From: Fusobacterium ulcerans ATCC 49185
Lineage (GTDB): Bacteria > Fusobacteriota > Fusobacteriia > Fusobacteriales > Fusobacteriaceae
Reading direction: 5' to 3'
DNA: 64,000 nt
Assembly (NCBI RefSeq): GCF_900683735.1
Contig: NZ_LR215979.1
Location: 2,852,001-2,916,000 of the forward strand
Below, in pieces: positions 3,185-20,784 of this stretch (position 1 is the first letter of the stretch; each line of letters opens with the position of its first letter). The translations under genes were made by a program, and so were the position numbers. A model generated the notes under the pieces. That model searched no databases, was not told the origin of the DNA, and saw only the letters and a list, made by a program, of their open reading frames with translations.

Positions 3185-5461
3185 TTAATTCATAAGGTTA
3201 AGAAGTGATCTTAATCCAAATCTTTCTTTTTTTATATCAAATTTTTTCTTTTCCTTATCATAAATGGGTATTTTCATATCATAAAGATATTCCCCGATTT
3301 GATGTTTTACAAATATATTTTTTTCAAGATGTCCATCAACACTTTTATATCCTGTTGGAACAAAAAGAAGGATATCAAATCCTAAAAATTTTAAAAAAGC
3401 TGTAATTATTCCATCTTCCTTACTTCCTATTTGTTCAGTAGTATCAACTATTACTAATTTTGGTATTTTTTTAGTAAAATCATATTTTTGTATAAGTCTT
3501 AATATTTCTATATCAAGATTAAGTATTGTATCCAGTATTGTAAATTCTATACCATTGTTGAAAGTTCCAGGAATAATACCACTATCTAATAGTTGCTGAG
3601 CTTTTTCAAAAATATAATTCTGCATTTCATCTCTGATAAATTTATAATTATATGAAGGATGTTTTTTTATTGTTTCCACTTGTATTTTTTTATTTTTTAT
3701 AAATGAAACTACAGATTGTCCCAAAGTTTTTTTATTTTTTTCATTTATATATGGAAGATTTTTTACAAATATTCCTTCTGGCTGTAAAAATTGTTCTATT
3801 ATTTTCCAATAATTATTTTTATCTTTATTTGGAACTCCACATATTTTAGAACATATTACTGGAACCATTACTCTGTCAGTAAGTATTTCAAAATTTTGTC
3901 TGTATTTAGCTTCCTGATTCCATAATATTCCAATTTCTTCATAGGTAGTTTGTAAAGTAACTGGAATAGCATTTTTAAATTGATTTTGTCTGAATAAGCC
4001 AGAATCTTGGTATAAAAGCGAATCTAAATCTCGTTCAGCATTATAAGCTGTTGTCCCAAAATTTATATTTTCTAGTTTTTTAGGAAATTTTCCTAAGGGA
4101 ATAGAAAATTCATTTATTTCTTCAAATAAAATTTTATCGTTTATACTGCATTCTAAAGTTTTGTCAGGACAAAATATTATAACATCAACTGGAATTCTTG
4201 CTAGAAGTCTTATAAACAGCTTTTCATTTTCATTTTTGCAGTTGCCATAATAAATAAATACAGGATATTTTTTTAAATCTATTTTTTTGAATAGTACAGA
4301 AATATATCTATTTAGCCAACACAAAAGTATTACTCCACTATTGCTTAATTTTTGCAGCCTTTCATCTTTATTTTCTGTCATTATTTCAATAAAAGCTTTC
4401 TTTAAAAGAAGTTCAAGCTCAGAATTTTGTCTAAAAGAAATATTATTAGAAAGCTCATTTATCAGTTCTATAGAATTTTGATATAGTTTTTTCTTTATTT
4501 GCTGTACCTCTAACCCATCAGGATTATGTATTCCACCTTCTATGATTAATACTTCTCTTTCACTGCTGCTCAGTTTTAATTTCCATTTAAATAATTCATT
4601 CATAAAATTATTTTTATCTTCAACACCTGTCATTTTAACAAACATATTATAATAATAATTATCTTTGCTTCCCCTCACATTTGAAGATTTTAAAGAATCT
4701 TCAAATATATATCCAGCAGTAATCCAAGTGTTTGTACTCATTATTCCTTGAGGCTGAGCTATTTTTATCTGCTTTTTTTCATCATTAGAGTTGCTATATT
4801 TTTTTATTTCTAGTGCTGTTACAGAAAAATTTTTTGGAAATGGCTGAGGGTTATCATTTGGCATTATATAAGATAAAACTGAATTTCTATCTAAATTTCT
4901 ATCTTCTACAGTTTGAAGCAAAATGATATCACATCCTGCTTTGGCAAGTATATTCAGCATTTTTAATTCGTGATTGCTTGCATTTCCATCAAAAAGAATT
5001 TTAGGAACATTATCCTTTCCCAATGCTTTTAATACAGATTGAAATCTATAATAGAACCAACACATATATTTTACATAAGTATTTTTTAAGATGTTAATAT
5101 TTTTACCCTCTTTCTCCAATACTTTTAATTCTTCAAAAAGAGCTTCTATTATTATTGCAATTTGAATTTCTGAAAGTTGAGGTATCCATTTTTTCATAGT
5201 TTTTTCCATGAATACTTTATCCATTATGAATTCTTTTCCAGCCATTTCAATAAAATAATTTATTCTTTCTTGAGTTGGATTTTGAATATTATTTTTTATG
5301 TAGACTCCACATATTTTTACTTGTTCTAAGTACTTAAAGAGAAAATTTTCTATTTTTATACTGTATGAAGTTACTCTGTAAAAATATATGCCTTTGGGAT
5401 TTCTTTCACTATATTTTTTAAAATAATCATCTGTATTATTAAATTTTATCTTTTCTACCAT
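3185..5461 (-). CDS. yceG: YceG-family component of the Ter biosynthetic module
   Basis: This 758-residue soluble protein matches the YceG family of Bacillus-type tellurium operons in size and gene context. It has no signal peptide or membrane segment. I see an internal duplication: a module near residues 131-183 (KYMCWFYYRF then VPKILFDGN then AGCDIILLQ) recurs near 378-431 (ILLCWLNRYISVL then YPVFIYYGN then PVDVIIFC). The same module recurs in the serine-protease gene at 9373-10794. The biochemical role of YceG is not established; it is proposed to belong to a module making a nucleoside-like metabolite with the neighbouring phosphoribosyltransferases and CitE-like lyase. It lies between the StiP gene and telA. 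Confidence 0.85.
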   Translation of the reverse strand: MVEKIKFNNTDDYFKKYSERNPKGIYFYRVTSYSIKIENFLFKYLEQVKICGVYIKNNIQNPTQERINYFIEMAGKEFIMDKVFMEKTMKKWIPQLSEIQIAIIIEALFEELKVLEKEGKNINILKNTYVKYMCWFYYRFQSVLKALGKDNVPKILFDGNASNHELKMLNILAKAGCDIILLQTVEDRNLDRNSVLSYIMPNDNPQPFPKNFSVTALEIKKYSNSNDEKKQIKIAQPQGIMSTNTWITAGYIFEDSLKSSNVRGSKDNYYYNMFVKMTGVEDKNNFMNELFKWKLKLSSSEREVLIIEGGIHNPDGLEVQQIKKKLYQNSIELINELSNNISFRQNSELELLLKKAFIEIMTENKDERLQKLSNSGVILLCWLNRYISVLFKKIDLKKYPVFIYYGNCKNENEKLFIRLLARIPVDVIIFCPDKTLECSINDKILFEEINEFSIPLGKFPKKLENINFGTTAYNAERDLDSLLYQDSGLFRQNQFKNAIPVTLQTTYEEIGILWNQEAKYRQNFEILTDRVMVPVICSKICGVPNKDKNNYWKIIEQFLQPEGIFVKNLPYINEKNKKTLGQSVVSFIKNKKIQVETIKKHPSYNYKFIRDEMQNYIFEKAQQLLDSGIIPGTFNNGIEFTILDTILNLDIEILRLIQKYDFTKKIPKLVIVDTTEQIGSKEDGIITAFLKFLGFDILLFVPTGYKSVDGHLEKNIFVKHQIGEYLYDMKIPIYDKEKKKFDIKKERFGLRSLLNLMN

Positions 5462-11853: not shown

Positions 11854-12201
11854 TGGTGGAGATGACGGGAATCGAACCCGTGTCCGAAATTACCAGCGCC
11901 ATAGGCTTCTACAAGCTTAGTCTGCTATTAGATTTCGCAGTAGTTAATCCCACAGACAGGGCTAACTAAAGCTATCCTCTGGAATGTCCCCTATAACTTA
12001 GAGAAATCATTTAGGGTAATCTGTATTTTTGTGACACCTTGGCTGAACACATTTACAGAAGAATATGTTCAAAGGTGAGCTGACATTAAGCAGCTAAAGC
12101 GTAATTTCTATTTCCATCTAAACGATGAGTTGACCTCTCACAGCGGTCACCCTGGCCTGCTACCTATAACCTGAGAACCCCGTCGAAACCTTTGCATCCC
12201 C
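11854..12201 (-). ncRNA. ssrA: tmRNA (transfer-messenger RNA)
   Basis: A complete 348-base tmRNA. The 5' end GGGGATG (12195-12201, minus) pairs over seven bases with CATCTCC near the 3' end, followed by A and an encoded CCA (11854-11856). The T-arm GGGTTCGATTCCC and the 5' segment GCAAAGGTTTCGACGGGG are diagnostic. The tag frame is at 12086-12115 (minus): GGA resume codon, encoding GNRNYALAA and ending in TAA. It rescues stalled ribosomes by tagging nascent peptides for proteolysis. It follows smpB directly on the same strand, the partner needed for its function. Confidence 0.97.
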
Positions 12202-12258: not shown

Positions 12259-12699
12259 TTATCTTTCTTTTGCTATCCTTTGAAGATCTCTTTCTACATC
12301 TTTTTTAGCTAAACTTTCTCTCTTATCATAGTTTTTCTTACCTCTTGCCAGAGCTATTTCCAGTTTTACATATCCCTTAGACATATGAACATTTAAAGGA
12401 ACAATAGTATATCCTTTTTGAGATACTTTCTCATGAAGTTTTCTTATTTCTTTCTTATGCAGAAGAAGTTTTCTTACTCTTCTTTCATCTGGGTTATATA
12501 CACTTCCGAATCCCCATGGAACTATTGACATTCCCATAATAAAAATTTCTCCATTTATTATTCTTATAAAAGATTCTTTTATGCTTATTTTTCCAGCTTT
12601 TGCAGATTTCACTTCACTTCCCACTAACTCAATACCGGCTTCAAATTTATCTTCTATGAAATAATCGAAAAATGCTTTCTTATTTCCTGCTAGTATCAT
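12259..12699 (-). CDS. smpB: SsrA-binding protein SmpB
   Basis: This 146-residue protein is a complete SmpB. NKKAFFDYFIEDKFEAGIEL opens the OB-fold, LVGSEVKSAKAGKISIKESF is the best-conserved block, NPDERRVRKLLLHKKEI follows, and the basic tail KKNYDKRESLAKKDVERDLQ enters the decoding centre on the ribosome. SmpB binds tmRNA and delivers it to stalled ribosomes. The start has an AGGAGG-like site directly upstream. The gene is 57 bp upstream of ssrA on the same strand, so the two are probably transcribed together. Confidence 0.97.
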   Translation of the reverse strand: MILAGNKKAFFDYFIEDKFEAGIELVGSEVKSAKAGKISIKESFIRIINGEIFIMGMSIVPWGFGSVYNPDERRVRKLLLHKKEIRKLHEKVSQKGYTIVPLNVHMSKGYVKLEIALARGKKNYDKRESLAKKDVERDLQRIAKER

Positions 12700-13997: not shown

Positions 13998-14870
13998 TTA
14001 TTTTCTATTCTTTACATCTTTCTTGTCAAAAAGTTTTCTTCTCTCAGTTGATTGAATAAATAATTTTTTCATTCCTTCAACATCTTCATTTACAAGCTTT
14101 TCTCTGAAATTATCCAGTTCTGCTGCAAAGTCGTCTATTTCTTTTATCAAAACTTCTTTGTTTAAAAGAAAAAGTTCACTCCATAAAACTTCATTTATTT
14201 TAGCTATTCTAGTAAGATCTCTAAATGAATCTCCTGTATATTCTACAAGATGTGTATTATCATTTGTATTCATAAGGGATACAGCTATCACATGAGTTAG
14301 CTGAGATACAAAACCAATCATTTTATCATGTTCTTCCAAAGAAAGCTGAGTTATATTTCTAAAGCCAAGTATTTTCCCAAGTTCCTTTCCAAATTCTATT
14401 CCCTGAATTGTATTTTTTTCTGTAGGAGTAACAATAAAGTTAGCTATTTCAAAAATAGTTTCGTCACTGTTTCTTACTCCACTCACTTCTTTTCCTGCCA
14501 TTGGATGAGAGCTGATAAACTCAACATCTCTAGGTAACCTTTCTTGTACTTTATTAACTATACCTCTTTTTACACCACTTACATCAGTAATTATACAGCC
14601 TTTTTTAAAATATTTTTGATTTCTTTCTATCCATTCTACCATAGTAGTAGGATAAAGTCCTGATATTATCACATCTGCTTTTTCTATCAATGATTTATAA
14701 TCAGAAACTGCTCCTTCATCTATTATTTTATTTTCAAGAGCATATTCTATACTATCTTCATTTATATCAACAGCACTTACAAAGTAACCTTTTTTCTTGA
14801 GAGCTTTTGCATAAGCCCCTCCTAAAAGTCCCAATCCTACAATTAAGAATTTCATATTTTTATTTGCCAT
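13998..14870 (-). CDS. tyrA: Prephenate dehydrogenase
   Basis: A 290-residue NAD-dependent prephenate dehydrogenase making 4-hydroxyphenylpyruvate for tyrosine. The Rossmann motif IVGLGLLGGAYAKALKKKGY is at the start, and SSHPMAGKEVSGV near residue 122 and QLTHVIAVSL near residue 190 carry the catalytic histidines. No chorismate mutase or ACT domain is fused, unlike E. coli TyrA. The ATG at 14868-14870 overlaps the end of aroA, with AAGG nine bases upstream, so translation is coupled. It is the last gene of the aro operon. Confidence 0.95.
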   Translation of the reverse strand: MANKNMKFLIVGLGLLGGAYAKALKKKGYFVSAVDINEDSIEYALENKIIDEGAVSDYKSLIEKADVIISGLYPTTMVEWIERNQKYFKKGCIITDVSGVKRGIVNKVQERLPRDVEFISSHPMAGKEVSGVRNSDETIFEIANFIVTPTEKNTIQGIEFGKELGKILGFRNITQLSLEEHDKMIGFVSQLTHVIAVSLMNTNDNTHLVEYTGDSFRDLTRIAKINEVLWSELFLLNKEVLIKEIDDFAAELDNFREKLVNEDVEGMKKLFIQSTERRKLFDKKDVKNRK

Positions 14871-16131
14871 AGTATTCAACCTTTATCCCTATCTTCTCTA
14901 TATCTTCAAAAAAATCTGGGTAAGACTTTTCCACAGCCTCTGCTCCATCTATGATGACTGGTTTTTTCATAATAGTTGCTGCCACTGCCAGACTCATAAC
15001 TATTCTGTGATCTTTATGTCCTGCTGTTTCTATTCCACCATCATATATTTTTTTACCAGATATAAAAATCTCATCTTCAGTAGTTTTTATTTCCACTCCC
15101 AGCTTTAAAAGTTCCTCTTCCATAGCTGCTATTCTGTCGCTTTCCTTATACCTTAATCTTCCTGCATTATAGATTCTGAACTTTCCATCTCCATACATTC
15201 CCAATACATTAAGTATTGGTCCTAGATCTGGACAGTCAGCAAGATCTATTTCACAACTTTTGGGAATACTCTTATAAATAAGATATCCTCCCTCAATATT
15301 TTCTATTTTTATTCCAGCATTTCTTAATATTTCTATTATAGCCTTATCTCCCTGACTGGATTCACGATTCAGCCCAAGACATTCAATATCATTATTTATT
15401 GCTCCCAGTACTGCAAAAAAACCAAGTTGTGAAAAATCTCCCTCTATTGTATAATCACAAGGTTTATATTTCTGATTTCCTTTAATTTTAAAAGTAAGTT
15501 CATCTGTCTGAGATATTTCTATTCCATATCTTTTCAGCATTTCAAGAGTAAGCTCTATATATGAAGCTGATTCAAAAGGAGGTTTTATTTTTATTTCAGA
15601 ATCTTCTTCCAGCAGAGGAAGAGTAAAAAGAAGTCCGCTTATAAATTGTGAGCTTATATTTCCATCTATCACATATGTTCCAGCTTTCAATTTACCTTCT
15701 ATTTCCATTTTAGTTTCATCATGGAAATAATGCAATTTCTGTTCTTTAAATATATCCTCATATATTTTTTGAGGTCTTTTAAGAAGTCTGTTCTTTCCAA
15801 GAAAAGTTATTTTTTTTCCAGTGAGAGAAAATATAGGTATAAAAAATCTCAAAGTTGAACCAGATTCATTACAATTTATTATTTCATCTGAAATTTTTGT
15901 AATATCTTTTATTCCATCTATAATGAGAATATCTCCATTTTCTTCTATTTCAGCTCCTAATTTCCTCATTCCCTCAATAGTTGTTTTTATATCATCAGAA
16001 TAAGCTACATTTTTTATGACACTTCTCCCTGCTGCTAATGAAGCACATATTATTGCCCTATGCCCCATACTTTTAGAAGGTGGTATAATTGTCTGCCCAC
16101 TGCATTTTGATGGATATATTTTTACTTTCAT
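14860..16131 (-). CDS. aroA: EPSP synthase (3-phosphoshikimate 1-carboxyvinyltransferase)
   Basis: This 423-residue protein is a full EPSP synthase joining shikimate-3-phosphate and phosphoenolpyruvate. Landmarks are PPSKSMGHRAIICASLAAG near residue 17, NCNESGSTLRFFIPI near residue 84, the PEP/phosphate contact KNRLLKRPQ-like stretch (GKNRLLKRPQKIYED), RLRYKESDRIAAMEEEL near residue 327 and TAGHKDHRIVMSLAVA near residue 369. The active-site segment is GSTLRF rather than the GTAMRP of E. coli, which places it away from the glyphosate-sensitive class I type; this is family reasoning, not a test. It follows aroF in the operon and overlaps tyrA. Confidence 0.96.
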   Translation of the reverse strand: MKVKIYPSKCSGQTIIPPSKSMGHRAIICASLAAGRSVIKNVAYSDDIKTTIEGMRKLGAEIEENGDILIIDGIKDITKISDEIINCNESGSTLRFFIPIFSLTGKKITFLGKNRLLKRPQKIYEDIFKEQKLHYFHDETKMEIEGKLKAGTYVIDGNISSQFISGLLFTLPLLEEDSEIKIKPPFESASYIELTLEMLKRYGIEISQTDELTFKIKGNQKYKPCDYTIEGDFSQLGFFAVLGAINNDIECLGLNRESSQGDKAIIEILRNAGIKIENIEGGYLIYKSIPKSCEIDLADCPDLGPILNVLGMYGDGKFRIYNAGRLRYKESDRIAAMEEELLKLGVEIKTTEDEIFISGKKIYDGGIETAGHKDHRIVMSLAVAATIMKKPVIIDGAEAVEKSYPDFFEDIEKIGIKVEYYGK

Positions 16132-16158: not shown

Positions 16159-17178
16159 CTACATATCTCTTCCAATGACTTTTGCTATTTTTCTTCCCTG
16201 TTCTATCAAATGTTTGAATTTTTTAGGTTTTAATGATTGAGCTCCATCGCTCCAAGCATGCTCAGGATCATTATGTACCTCTATAATAAGTCCATCTGCC
16301 CCTGCAGCAATAGCTGCCAATGCCATTGATTCTACATATTCCCAGTTTCCAGTAGCATGAGAAGGATCAATTATTATAGGAAGATGTGTTTTCTGTTTGA
16401 TAATAGGTATTACACTAAGATCAAGTGTATTTCTAGTATATTTTTCAAATGTACGAATACCTCTTTCACACAGTATTACATTTTCATTTCCTCCAGCCAT
16501 TATGTATTCTGCTGACATTATCCATTCCTCTATAGTGTTTGAAAGTCCTCTTTTTAAAAGAATAGGTTTATTTATTTTCCCAACAGCTTTTAGTAAATCA
16601 AAGTTCTGCATATTTCTTGCCCCTATTTGAATAAGGTCTACATTTTCAACGAATTCATCTATCTTATCTGCACTCATAAGTTCACTTACTATTGGAAGTC
16701 CATAAGTTTCTCTTGCTTTCACCAGACATTGTATTCCTTCACTTGCCATTCCCTGAAAAGCATATGGTGATGTACGAGGTTTGTAAGCTCCACCTCTAAG
16801 CATAGAAGCTCCTGCCTCTTTTACTTCTTTAGCTATCTCCATAACAGAGCATTCTCCCTCTACAGAACAAGGACCTCCTATTACAGCTATTTTCTGACCT
16901 GCTCCTATCTTGATTCCTGCCACATCTATAATACTGTCTTCTGGGTGAAAAAGTCTGTTGGCTTTCTTATATGGTGCTGCTATCCTAGTTACATCTTCAA
17001 CATATGGATTTGCCTTCAATGCTTTTTCATCTATTTTTGTTGTATCTCCTACAATACCAAATACATTGTAGTTTTCTCCTGATATAAGAGTTACAGCTAC
17101 ATCATTTTTGCTTTCTAAAGCCTCAATCATCTTTTGAATCTCTTCTTGTGGTGCATTCTTTTTTAAAGTTATTATCAT
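16159..17178 (-). CDS. aroF: 3-deoxy-7-phosphoheptulonate (DAHP) synthase, type I-beta
   Basis: This 339-residue DAHP synthase catalyses the first step of the shikimate pathway from erythrose-4-phosphate and phosphoenolpyruvate. It has an N-terminal ferredoxin-like domain (residues 1-75) of the Thermotoga/Bacillus sort, usually the feedback-regulatory part. The barrel follows with AVIGGPCSVEGECSVMEIAK, MLRGGAYKPRTSPYAFQGM, LLKRGLSNTIEEW and IIDPSHATGNWEYVESMALA. No chorismate mutase is attached. It lies between aroC and aroA. Likely inhibition by Phe or Tyr is a family inference. Confidence 0.95.
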   Translation of the reverse strand: MIITLKKNAPQEEIQKMIEALESKNDVAVTLISGENYNVFGIVGDTTKIDEKALKANPYVEDVTRIAAPYKKANRLFHPEDSIIDVAGIKIGAGQKIAVIGGPCSVEGECSVMEIAKEVKEAGASMLRGGAYKPRTSPYAFQGMASEGIQCLVKARETYGLPIVSELMSADKIDEFVENVDLIQIGARNMQNFDLLKAVGKINKPILLKRGLSNTIEEWIMSAEYIMAGGNENVILCERGIRTFEKYTRNTLDLSVIPIIKQKTHLPIIIDPSHATGNWEYVESMALAAIAAGADGLIIEVHNDPEHAWSDGAQSLKPKKFKHLIEQGRKIAKVIGRDM

Positions 17179-17211: not shown

Positions 17212-18321
17212 TTATTTTTTATCTGTCATCCACATATACCCATATCTCATACATATGAGATCAAGCAGTCCAAATGCTGTCATAGAATCTATAACTACTC
17301 TTGCTCTATGTATTATAGCTGGGTCATGCCTTCCTTCAATATTAAATTTTACATTTTCTCCTTTAGATATATCTATGCTTTCCTGCTCTTTATATATTGA
17401 TGGTGTAGGTTTTACAGCAGTTCTCATTATAAGTGGCATAGAATTTGTTATCCCTCCATTGATACCTCCATTATTATTTGTTTTTGTTTTTACTTTTCCA
17501 TTTTCATAATAGAAACTGTCATTAGCTTCACTTCCATACATATCTGTCATTCTAAAACCACCTCCAAATTCTATTCCTTTTACTGCTGGTATAGAATATA
17601 TAAGATGAGAAAGTACACTTTCTACAGAATTAAAATATGGTTCCCCTATTCCAGCTGGCAATCCTGTCACAGCAGTTTCTAATATTCCTCCTACTGAATC
17701 TAGTTCCTCTCCAGCTTTTTCTATTATGTTTTTCATTTTTTCTTCTGCATCTTTTTCCAGTACAGGAAAATATTTTTCATTTACTTCTTTGATTTCCTTT
17801 AAAAGTATTATTTCATTTGATGAAAAATCTTTATCTCTTTCATTTTTACATTTTAATATATGAGTTCCTATTTCTATTTCCTTAGATTTAAGTATCTGAA
17901 TAAATATTGCCCCTGCTGCTACCAGAGGTGCTGTTGTTCTTCCAGAAAAATGTCCTCCCCCTCTATAGTCCTGATACCCCATATATTTTATATCTGCTGT
18001 ATAATCAGCATGAGAAGGTCTCATTATGCTTTTAGTTTTTTCATAATCTCTGCTCAGCTGTGATTTATTTTCAATTATAAGGCATAGTGGTGTACCAGTT
18101 GTATATCCATTGAAATATCCACTTACTATTTTGAAATCATCTGCTTCATGTCTTTGAGTTGATATTTTCCCTTTTGGCTTTCTTTTTTCCAGCTGCTGCT
18201 GTATAAAATCAGTATCTAATTTTATTCCAGGAGCCAAGCCATCTATCACTATTCCAATAGCTGTTCCATGTGATTCTCCAAAAAGACTGAGCTTTATACT
18301 ATTTCCTATTGTACTCTGCAT
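17212..18321 (-). CDS. aroC: Chorismate synthase
   Basis: A 369-residue chorismate synthase converting EPSP to chorismate with reduced FMN. Landmarks are LFGESHGTAIGIVIDGLAPG at the N-terminus, RRKPKGKISTQRHE-like LEKRKPKGKISTQRHEADDF, RPSHADYTADIKY near residue 101, the FMN-site stretch DYRGGGHFSGRTTAPLVAAG near residue 119 and NNNGGINGGITNSMPL near residue 285. The length matches monofunctional AroC. It follows aroB by 11 bp and precedes aroF in the leader-controlled operon. Confidence 0.97.
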   Translation of the reverse strand: MQSTIGNSIKLSLFGESHGTAIGIVIDGLAPGIKLDTDFIQQQLEKRKPKGKISTQRHEADDFKIVSGYFNGYTTGTPLCLIIENKSQLSRDYEKTKSIMRPSHADYTADIKYMGYQDYRGGGHFSGRTTAPLVAAGAIFIQILKSKEIEIGTHILKCKNERDKDFSSNEIILLKEIKEVNEKYFPVLEKDAEEKMKNIIEKAGEELDSVGGILETAVTGLPAGIGEPYFNSVESVLSHLIYSIPAVKGIEFGGGFRMTDMYGSEANDSFYYENGKVKTKTNNNGGINGGITNSMPLIMRTAVKPTPSIYKEQESIDISKGENVKFNIEGRHDPAIIHRARVVIDSMTAFGLLDLICMRYGYMWMTDKK

Positions 18322-18332
18322 TTTTCCTCCTC

Positions 18333-19334
18333 TTATTTAAGATAATTTTTACACTCTTCTATTGGAACTTTTACTAATTCAGCTTTTCCCAGCTCTTTTA
18401 CCTTTACCAAAGTTATTTTATCTTGATCAGCTTTTTTATCTTTAAGCATAAGTTCAAACACTTTTTCTCTGTCATATTCTATATCTGTATCTATATTCAT
18501 TTTCTTCAATATTTTTTTAGTTCTCTCTCTTAAATCCTCATCCTCTATCATAGGAAGCATTCCTATAGCTACTCCTTCTCCATGAAGTACATCTTTCAAA
18601 TGAAAGAACCCCTCTATTCCATGCCCTACAGTGTGTCCAAAGTTTAATATCTTTCTCAGATTTTCTTCTTTTTCATCTTTCTCTACCACATCTTTTTTTA
18701 CCAAGAGAGCTCTGTATATTATCTCCTGAAGATTATCATTTATGTTTTTATTTTCAAATATCTCAAAAAGCTCTTTGTCATATATCAGCCCTGCCTTCAA
18801 TGCTTCCACCAGTCCATTGTAATAGTGCCTTTCAGGAAGAGTTTCCAAAACTTCTAAATCTATAAATACCCCTTTTGGCTGATAAAAAGCTCCTATTATA
18901 TTTTTAGTATCTCCAAGATTTATTGCAGTCTTTCCTCCAATAGAGCTATCTATCTGCGACAGTGTAGTAGTTGGAATATTTATAAAATCTATCCCCCTCA
19001 TATAAGAAGCTGCTGTAAAACCTCCTAAATCTCCAATTACTCCTCCACCAAGAGCTATTATCAAATCATTTCTATGAAATCCCAGATCAAGAAGTTTTTT
19101 GCATACTTCTTCAAATACTTTAAAACTTTTTGCCCCTTCTCCATGCTCTACAGCTATAGAGTATCCATTTGGACACTGAAATTTTATTATATCTATATAT
19201 TTTTGAGGAACTCCCTTATCTGTCACTATCATAACTTTTCTATCTAAATTTATATATTCTTTTATTTTATGAAGTATTCCTTTTTCAATATGAATATCAT
19301 AACTTTTTTCTTTAAGCTCCACTCTCAGTTTCAT
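18333..19334 (-). CDS. aroB: 3-dehydroquinate synthase
   Basis: A 333-residue AroB that cyclises DAHP to 3-dehydroquinate using NAD+ and a divalent metal. It has EHGEGAKSFKVFEEVCKKLL, the NAD loop ALGGGVIGDLGGFTAASYMR, IPTTTLSQIDSSIGGKTAIN and the metal-binding NFGHTVGHGIEGF and LHGEGVAIGM histidines. The start at 19332-19334 has AAGGAGG eight bases upstream. A longer frame would extend across the terminator and is rejected. It is the first structural gene after the leader peptide, so the attenuator controls it directly. Confidence 0.96.
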   Translation of the reverse strand: MKLRVELKEKSYDIHIEKGILHKIKEYINLDRKVMIVTDKGVPQKYIDIIKFQCPNGYSIAVEHGEGAKSFKVFEEVCKKLLDLGFHRNDLIIALGGGVIGDLGGFTAASYMRGIDFINIPTTTLSQIDSSIGGKTAINLGDTKNIIGAFYQPKGVFIDLEVLETLPERHYYNGLVEALKAGLIYDKELFEIFENKNINDNLQEIIYRALLVKKDVVEKDEKEENLRKILNFGHTVGHGIEGFFHLKDVLHGEGVAIGMLPMIEDEDLRERTKKILKKMNIDTDIEYDREKVFELMLKDKKADQDKITLVKVKELGKAELVKVPIEECKNYLK

Positions 19335-19362: not shown

Positions 19363-19394
19363 ATAAAAAAAAGCATTCAATTCCTTGAATGCTT
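19363..19394 (-). terminator. Terminator before aroB (probable attenuator)
   Basis: On the minus strand AAGCATTCAA (19385-19394 in complement) and TTGAATGCTT (19371-19380) form a perfect ten-base stem with a GGAA loop, followed by eight Ts. It lies between the leader peptide and aroB, so it would stop transcription before the structural genes unless prevented. Confidence 0.88.
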
Positions 19395-19395
19395 C

Positions 19396-19443
19396 GCCTT
19401 GATACAACAAAAGACCATAAGGGCTTTATGGTTGTATCAAGGC
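19396..19443 (-). promoter_or_regulatory. Leader hairpin overlapping the leader-peptide stop codon
   Basis: GCCTTGATACAAC and GTTGTATCAAGGC form a 13-base perfect stem (19431-19443 with 19396-19408) enclosing a smaller CATAA/TTATG stem. Its 5' arm starts on the last base of the leader-peptide UAG, so a ribosome ending there would block it, while one stalled further back at the Phe/Tyr codons would let it form. Part of the arm (CCUUGA) could also pair with UCAAGG inside the terminator (19383-19388). The exact antiterminator is not certain. Confidence 0.7.
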
Positions 19444-19493
19444 TATCTAAAATAAAATCTGAATACTATATTGTCTGCTTTTTTATCTCTCAT
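19443..19493 (-). CDS. aro operon leader peptide rich in Phe/Tyr codons
   Basis: A 16-codon frame reads MRDKKADNIVFRFYFR then UAG. Four of the last six residues are Phe or Tyr (FRFYFR). It starts nine bases after GGAG, lies about 25 bases after a good sigma-70 promoter, and ends at the foot of a hairpin and terminator before aroB. That is the layout of ribosome-mediated attenuation as in pheA and trp leaders: low charged tRNA-Phe/Tyr would stall the ribosome and favour read-through into the aro genes. The coding frame and signals are seen; the control is inferred. It is too short to be found by ordinary gene callers. Confidence 0.75.
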   Translation of the reverse strand: MRDKKADNIVFRFYFR

Positions 19494-19525
19494 AAGTTAC
19501 CACTCCGAAAAAACGAATTTTATTT

Positions 19526-19554
19526 ATAATAAACCTATATTAAAAATTTTGCAA
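19526..19554 (-). promoter_or_regulatory. Sigma-70 promoter of the aro operon
   Basis: On the minus strand TTGCAA (19549-19554) and TATTAT (19526-19531) are separated by 17 bases. The predicted start of transcription lies about 25 bases before the leader-peptide ATG. Confidence 0.75.
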
Positions 19555-19713: not shown

Positions 19714-20784
19714 ATGAATAAACTGGAAGAAGCAAGAAAAGTCATAAATGAAGTAGATAAAGAAGTAGCAGCCCTTTTCCAAAAAAGAATGCAGGCTGTA
19801 GAAGATGTCATTTTATACAAACTGGAAAATAATATGCCTATTTTCGATGGGGGAAGAGAAAAGCAGGTGATAGAAAAAAACTGTGCTTATATCACAGAGG
19901 AAAAATATATTGAATCATATAAGGAATTTATTCAGAATCTTATGGATACTTCTAAAAGATATCAGGCTACTATTATTAATAAAGGTGTAGTTGCATACCA
20001 AGGAACCATGGGTGCTTTTTCCCATATAGCATCAAAAAAAGTTTTTCCTGATTCAAAATTAAAATCATTTGCAACTTTTGAAGATGTCTTTAAAACAGTT
20101 GCTGATGGTGGTGCTGCATATGGTGTTATTCCTTTTGAAAATTCATTTACAGGAGAAGTGGGAGAAGTCCTTGATCTTCTTTTAAAATACGATTGCCACA
20201 TCTCTGGAATTTATGACCTTAAAATAGATCAAAATTTATTGGGACTAAAAAATGCTGAAATAAAAGACATAGAAAAGGTTTACTCACATCATCAGGCATT
20301 ATCTCAATGCCAGACATTCTTAAAAGGAACTAATTTTGAGGCTATCCCTTACCCTAATACTGCCCTTGCAGCCAAATTTGTAAGTGAAGCTGGAGATATA
20401 CACAAAGCTGCTATTGCCAGCAGAGAAACTGCAGAACTTTATGGTTTAAAAATTTTAGTAGAGAATATAAATACAAGTATAGAAAATACTACAAGATTTA
20501 TTATATTAACTAAAAAGCTTGAAGAAAAGGGAGATAGATTTAATCTTTTATTTACTGTTGACCACAATGCAGGACAGCTTGCACATATCATTCAGATAGT
20601 AGCTGAACATGGGTTCAATATGGAAAGCATCAAATCTCGTTCTCTTCATAATCTTCCTTGGCAGTACTTCTTCTATGTAGAAATAGTAGGAGAATTAAAA
20701 GAACAGAGAACAAAAGATTTGATAGATGCTATGAGAAAAAATTGTAAAGACCTTAAAATATTAGGAAGTTACTCTGTAAAATAA
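19714..20784 (+). CDS. pheA: Bifunctional chorismate mutase / prephenate dehydratase
   Basis: This 356-residue P-protein makes phenylpyruvate from chorismate. Residues 1-85 are an AroQ-type mutase (EEARKVINEVDKEVAALFQK and MQAVEDVILYK). Residues about 90-270 are the dehydratase, with YQGTMGAFSHIASKKVFPDS, GVIPFENSFTGEVGEVLDLL and NTSIENTTRFIIL. Residues about 275-356 are an ACT domain (FTVDHNAGQLAHIIQIVAEH, then MESIKSRSLHNLPWQYFFYV) that normally binds Phe for feedback. The start has GGGGGAG upstream. It is divergent from the aro-tyrA operon and completes the Phe branch. Confidence 0.97.
   Translation: MNKLEEARKVINEVDKEVAALFQKRMQAVEDVILYKLENNMPIFDGGREKQVIEKNCAYITEEKYIESYKEFIQNLMDTSKRYQATIINKGVVAYQGTMGAFSHIASKKVFPDSKLKSFATFEDVFKTVADGGAAYGVIPFENSFTGEVGEVLDLLLKYDCHISGIYDLKIDQNLLGLKNAEIKDIEKVYSHHQALSQCQTFLKGTNFEAIPYPNTALAAKFVSEAGDIHKAAIASRETAELYGLKILVENINTSIENTTRFIILTKKLEEKGDRFNLLFTVDHNAGQLAHIIQIVAEHGFNMESIKSRSLHNLPWQYFFYVEIVGELKEQRTKDLIDAMRKNCKDLKILGSYSVK

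Follow-up and report, generated by a model that had tools for sequence, protein, structure and literature searches.

A probable Phe/Tyr leader-peptide attenuator in front of the aro operon of Fusobacterium ulcerans

Leader region and operon

The analyzed window comprises 64,000 nucleotides of Fusobacterium ulcerans ATCC 49185 (contig NZ_LR215979.1, positions 2,852,001 to 2,916,000), whose 3.84 Mb genome forms one contig. On the minus strand it carries an operon for shikimate and tyrosine synthesis (Table 1). The gene order aroB-aroC-aroF-aroA-tyrA given in an earlier note on this DNA was right, as judged from HMM matches for four of the genes and from ORF reading and comparison with relatives for tyrA. 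The pheA gene (chorismate mutase/prephenate dehydratase) diverges from the operon at position 19714. Elsewhere in the window, a tmRNA gene (11854-12201, minus strand, 164.8 bits) adjoins an smpB-like ORF (12259-12699).

The leader upstream of aroB consists of a promoter-like site, a Shine-Dalgarno (SD)-like site, a short ORF, a hairpin (P1) and a terminator, all on the minus strand; the earlier note had proposed the same succession, with a 13-base hairpin on the stop codon, and we found each element at its place. The promoter match alone is no better than chance (8 sites vs 9.2 expected in the consensus scan). The 61 bp directly 5' of the leader ORF are 95-97% identical in sister species, compared to 79-96% farther upstream. 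The ORF includes 16 codons, is rich in Phe and Tyr codons and ends with FRFYFR*, the F/Y run stopping one codon short of the stop codon. The G of this stop codon is also the first base of the P1 stem, and P1 is followed without any spacer by the hairpin of an intrinsic terminator, which is present between the leader ORF and the first structural gene. Folding of 19363-19520, as proposed in the earlier note, yielded -44.8 kcal/mol (z -5.3), while the 83 bases after the stop codon folded on their own at -38.5 kcal/mol (z -9.5), with 0 of 200 shuffles as good.

Table 1. Coordinates of the leader elements and operon genes in the window
Feature	Position	Strand	Details
Promoter-like site TTGCAA-17-TATTAT	19526..19554	-	-35 TTGCAA 19554-19549, spacer 17 nt, -10 TATTAT 19531-19526; consensus scan 9/12; small changes in three sister species
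SD-like GGAGTGG of leader ORF	19500..19506	-	direct reading; same in four species
Leader ORF MRDKKADNIVFRFYFR + TAG	19443..19493	-	ATG 19493-19491, stop TAG 19445-19443
L' = AGUAUUCA (codons V10-F11-R12)	19460..19467	-	candidate alternative partner of T2, matching its sequence UGAAUGCU by complementarity
Hairpin P1	19396..19443	-	13-bp stem 19443-19431 / 19408-19396; inner CCAUAA/UUAUGG; 3' U-rich bulge UCUUUU 19414-19409
Intrinsic terminator T1:T2 + U8	19365..19395	-	T1 19395-19385, T2 19380-19370; hairpin 19395-19370 of 11 bp with 4-nt loop, into U8 (19372-19365); identical in four species
aroB, operon gene 1	18333..19333	-	TIGR01357 327 bits, cutoff 305
aroC, chorismate synthase	17212..18321	-	TIGR00033 / NF003793 above cutoff
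DAHP synthase (aroF/aroG function)	16159..17178	-	NF006421, TIGR01361 above cutoff
aroA, EPSP synthase	14860..16131	-	TIGR01356 above cutoff
tyrA, prephenate dehydrogenase-like	13998..14879	-	ORF reading and match to same-place tyrA in relatives

Conservation, distribution and origin

The leader was found in four of the 12 Fusobacterium genomes sampled, namely in the window and in three sister species (G008, G009 and G010) with which the window was compared. P1 and the terminator together show 0-1 changes across the sister species, the one change of G009 falling in the P1 loop. In the most distant sister, G008, aroB DNA differs from that of the window by 16%, the farther-upstream spacer by 21% and the stretch from the terminator to aroB by 24%; P1 and the terminator have 0/50 and 0/31 changes, respectively (0/81 together). 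The G008 leader ORF has five changes, of which a single one, the silent TAT>TAC, affects an F/Y codon. Altogether, the F/Y residues of the leader are invariant in the four species, the changes seen being A6T, D3N, D7N and the silent AAT>AAC and TAT>TAC. No leaders were found before the second DAHP synthase in other Fusobacterium genomes.

Outside the genus, we sampled 316 genomes of Erysipelotrichales, 175 of which have an aroB match at E<=1e-50, and read the upstream regions of over 100 aroB loci. In about 65 of these loci, some near-identical, aroB is preceded by a small ORF with a terminal F/Y run, by a stop codon and a hairpin and in nearly all cases by a clear terminator, the sequences being very different. 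Examples of the encoded peptides include MHNKGFYYYL*, MLFNRYYYS*, MHIHEIYSYYYFR*, MRNNAYFYYYE*, MKLTSTFYFYFR* and MNTNLFSYFYFYF*. In most leaders a single sense codon separates the last F/Y codon from the stop codon. Operons that start with pheA or that are devoid of DAHP synthase mostly have no such leader. L067 and L069 (400 nt before aroB) have a degenerate leader, read as MKWRYTYY* in L067, whose hairpin is different; it looks like a decaying or a fourth type. Lack of conservation of the leader codons in relatives had been named in the earlier note as an argument against attenuation. The comparison failed to refute the leader, since all four Fusobacterium species conserve Phe and Tyr at the amino acid level and the approximately 65 loci of Erysipelotrichales show the arrangement again ahead of aroB.

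The nearest aroB genes outside the genus belong to Bacillota, mainly to Erysipelotrichales (57-61%), compared to 42-48% for other Fusobacteriota. In the maximum-likelihood tree of aroB, six Fusobacterium sequences form one clade (100/99) within a Bacillota clade (98/91), and the sequences from other Fusobacteriota stand apart from them. Longicatena and two others (L061-L063) have the complete gene order of the window operon, divergent pheA included. Judging from tree and synteny, the shikimate operon is foreign to Fusobacteriota and derives by horizontal transfer from Bacillota. The attenuator is thus no invention of Fusobacteria, and the novelty worded specifically for that phylum in the earlier note is not supported. 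Joint transfer of leader and operon is the simplest reading of the sequences; it is not proven, because the direct sister group in the aroB tree consists of Clostridia (93/87) with an operon that begins with pheA and with no leader seen in front of it. Two other Fusobacterium genomes, G007 and G011 (loci L036 and L035), have an imported aroB-aroC-aroA set with pheA diverging, aroB being 69-70% identical; both lack the leader, and no DAHP synthase lies between their aroC and aroA. A possible leader of another kind, MFFNAYFYYFIKDCSSALNA, was noted upstream of a pheA-first operon in the clostridial locus L120 (about 4725-4893), where a hairpin within the ORF plus a terminator make an arrangement nearer to that of trp.

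Alternative pairings and possible switch mechanisms

The leader loci were sorted by eye into types A1, A2 and B. For the helices, RNA duplex energies were compared with those of dinucleotide-shuffled sequences and with those obtained after partners had been swapped among species. The variable stems were misaligned by MAFFT. As the subtypes were drawn up with the sequences in view, their p values err somewhat on the optimistic side, and the swap tests constitute the sounder evidence.

Type B (43 loci, among them L215, L203, L208, L220 and L091, upstream of aroB) has after the stop codon a GGGC-containing segment (G1), a GCCC-containing segment (G2), GGCAUUAUCUGNNGG (G3) and the terminator. G2 pairs with either G1 or G3, and G3 is complementary to the 5' arm plus loop of the terminator (p 7e-26). 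This is the cleanest case of an attenuator that we found, and its mutually exclusive helices G1:G2, G2:G3 and G3:(T1+loop) are absent from the window. In type A1 (10 loci), the pairing of the P1 arms is supported (p 3e-10, swap p 3e-4) and no antiterminator was found; nothing consistent was detected between the P1 arms or 5' UTR and the terminator arms. The SD and AUG of the A1 leaders are complementary to the 3' inner strand of P1 (p 3e-5, swap p 3e-4), with species-specific matching upstream of aroB in L061, L068, L072, L105, L152 and L164. Such pairing could shut off leader translation; it is absent in the window (p 0.55).

Type A2 includes 13 loci, the window among them. The pairing of its P1 arms is likewise supported (p 4e-7, swap p 3e-4). 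Evidence for contacts between the terminator arms and either the P1 arms or the 5' UTR is weak in A2. No pairing was found between the region 3' of the terminator and the leader or P1. A segment of the leader ORF directly before the F/Y run, termed L, is complementary to the loop and 3' arm of the terminator (for the 13 loci, Fisher 1.3e-7 and swap p 6e-4; 0.003 with a thinned set of ten). This pairing takes in the loop, which the terminator itself does not constrain, and it is stronger than the terminator stem in six loci (L157, L188, L201, L228, L233 and L246), for instance -15.5 vs -9.2 in L157 and -13.6 vs -8.3 in L188. At the corresponding place in the window lies L', whose 8 bp with T2 (-8.5 kcal/mol) are intact in the four Fusobacterium species. 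For the window alone the L' pairing reaches p 0.02-0.08, and it is weaker than the terminator (-8.5 vs -12.3 kcal/mol). A longer L in the window (AAAAAAGCAGACAAU with T2, -11.4) is interrupted in two of the sister species and was dropped.

When the ribosome was modeled as a 28-base mask on each codon in turn, equilibrium folding gave a terminator probability of 0.90-0.97 at every ribosome position of the window; its computed structures alone therefore give no switch. Among eight type B loci modeled, two show a drop in terminator probability with the ribosome on the F/Y codons and a partial rise at the stop codon, L203 (from 0.01-0.16 to 0.62) and L220 (from 0.26 to 0.82); the other six barely move. 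The sign in type B is right: a stalled ribosome would favor G1:G2, leaving G3 free as the antiterminator. In the A2 relatives L157, L171, L188 and L228, equilibrium folding predicts read-through when the ribosome is absent and termination when it sits on the F/Y codons, which in the model is opposite to the sign expected for a biosynthetic operon. In A2, L would lie beneath a ribosome that occupies the first F/Y codons.

We consider the leader of the window likely to be a transcription attenuator operated by a Phe/Tyr leader peptide, in a general sense that implies no particular switch. Of the ribosome-mediated attenuation proposed in the earlier note, the Phe/Tyr-codon leader with its terminator is supported by conservation and by the approximately 65 related loci. 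The note had also described the hairpins as other than the textbook 2:3/3:4 set, and rightly, as the 2:3 pairing is absent in the subtype of the window by the same test that is positive in type B. With an attenuator of this kind, expression of the imported operon for shikimate and tyrosine would follow how much charged Phe-tRNA and Tyr-tRNA is available. P1 begins only after the F/Y run; a ribosome waiting on these codons would therefore leave P1 nearly free and one at the stop codon would cover its 5' arm, so that P1 may report stalling.

One specific switch can be proposed for the window, although we regard it as doubtful and would place no more trust in any other single mechanism. If the ribosome were arrested at the last F codon, P1 would fold ahead of it and L' would come free behind it. 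The freed L' would then pair across P1 with the terminator loop and T2 and displace T1, and RNA polymerase would enter aroB. In a well-fed cell, a ribosome at the stop codon, or the next one initiating over L', would allow T1:T2 to form and transcription to stop. A farther-reaching reading, which we think somewhat less likely than not, is a three-part attenuator that lacks region 2, in which the leader coding segment before the hungry codons mimics the 5' arm of the terminator. The mimic would compete with this arm for the terminator loop and 3' arm, the outcome would depend on the place of the ribosome, and P1 would serve as a spacer that closes the gap.

Alternatively, L:(loop+T2) may belong to the stop signal as a terminator hairpin of greater strength and longer range, and the stalled ribosome would turn the operon on just by covering L. 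The sign of this direct occlusion is right, L is within the footprint of an F/Y-stalled ribosome and mostly outside it at the stop codon, and L:T2 abuts the U tract and is stronger than the weak T1:T2 of the relatives (-6 to -10 kcal/mol). However, T1:T2 is also conserved, and covering L' would give no read-through in the window because its T1:T2 is strong by itself; we therefore judge this reading unlikely. The terminator predicted in every ribosome state of the window would also agree with a constitutive leader, where a fixed basal level is set and the peptide is incidental, but this is improbable given an F/Y run conserved beside the stop codon over two phyla and a P1 stem kept by compensating change.

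The classical four-segment attenuator of E. coli trp and pheA, with P1 as 1:2 and the P1 loop segment AUGGUCUUUU plus the terminator 5' arm as 2:3, has a weak pairing of CCUUAUGGUCUUUUGUU with GCGAAGCAUUCAAGG (about -6 kcal/mol) in its favor, as well as a match to the full Rfam Phe_leader model (RF01859) that lies below the gathering cutoff of 55 (24.9 bits, E 0.027). Against it, the 2:3 pairing has p 0.60 versus shuffles in the window, the A2 post-stop region does not pair with the terminator 5' arm (Fisher 0.97-0.98, swap p 0.58, no covariation), and the F/Y codons are upstream of P1, so that a stalled ribosome would not mask segment 1. The 2:3 antiterminator was rejected for A1 and A2 by shuffles and species partner swaps, and we hold the classical scheme to be quite improbable here. 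An arrest peptide similar to TnaC or SpeFL, where free Phe or Tyr delays release of the nascent ...FYFR at the stop codon and a ribosome held there signals plenty, is very improbable: many leaders do end in (F/Y)R*, a ribosome at the stop codon covers the P1 5' arm and ribosome-free folding favors read-through in several relatives, but F and Y interchange freely, the run varies in length and the last residue can be R, E, S, L, Q, C or K, which fits codons rather than an arrest motif. A riboswitch or other known RNA family was dismissed, with no Rfam match in the window except the tmRNA and none in 12 related loci, and no T-box was matched in the window at gathering score or among the E<=10 matches at the site.

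Relation to known attenuators

Leader-peptide attenuation is an old and established principle. For the aro operon, or for the phylum Fusobacteria, a search of open-licence papers that included Fusobacterium and Erysipelotrichaceae aro attenuation returned no report. If true, the present reading would mean that an amino-acid leader peptide attenuates a nearly complete operon from chorismate to tyrosine in Fusobacteria and that this switch was acquired along with its operon through horizontal transfer. Erysipelotrichales, common gut bacteria for which the literature searched gave predicted His leaders only, would add about 65 cases. Types A1, A2 and B would offer a natural series for attenuator rewiring, because peptide, operon and terminator stay while the wiring differs. 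If the three-part reading is true, related species would use no fewer than three different RNA readouts for the same Phe/Tyr leader.

In the E. coli trp leader, the stalled ribosome masks segment 1. The logic of the present leader appears reversed, with stalling leaving P1 nearly free, and the RNA wiring of the window seems unusual next to the textbook 2:3/3:4 set. The pheA/pheST leader of E. coli combines a Phe-codon peptide with an intrinsic terminator upstream of a Phe-synthesis gene; in contrast to that leader (RF01859), no 2:3 antiterminator was found here, and the whole operon from shikimate to tyrosine is preceded by the leader.

Actinobacterial ilvB genes have leader peptides with terminators and an unclear mechanism (BMC Microbiol 2005, PMC1262725). 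They resemble the present case in that an antiterminator is not recognisable, and differ in their branched-chain codons and unrelated sequence. In Streptomyces ilvB, codon changes were without effect (PMC1262725), which by analogy is a warning for the Phe/Tyr leader. The trpB motif SRC-39-1, present in Firmicutes and Fusobacteria, also has two hairpins before amino acid genes, the second being a terminator, and its authors do not exclude classic attenuation (NAR 2024, PMC11109978). Compared by description only, it differs by an antiterminator in the right shoulder of P1 and by its trpB and ABC transporter genes.

His leader-peptide attenuators have been predicted for the his operons of Erysipelotrichales, Peptostreptococcaceae and the B. 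cereus group (BMC Genomics 2022, PMC9413887). In that paper, aro operons and Fusobacteria are not treated, the codons and operon are those of histidine, and alternative antiterminators are reported. The predicted his leaders share with the leader described here a short peptide whose product-codon run lies directly 5' of a hairpin and terminator, and they occur in the same order, Erysipelotrichales.
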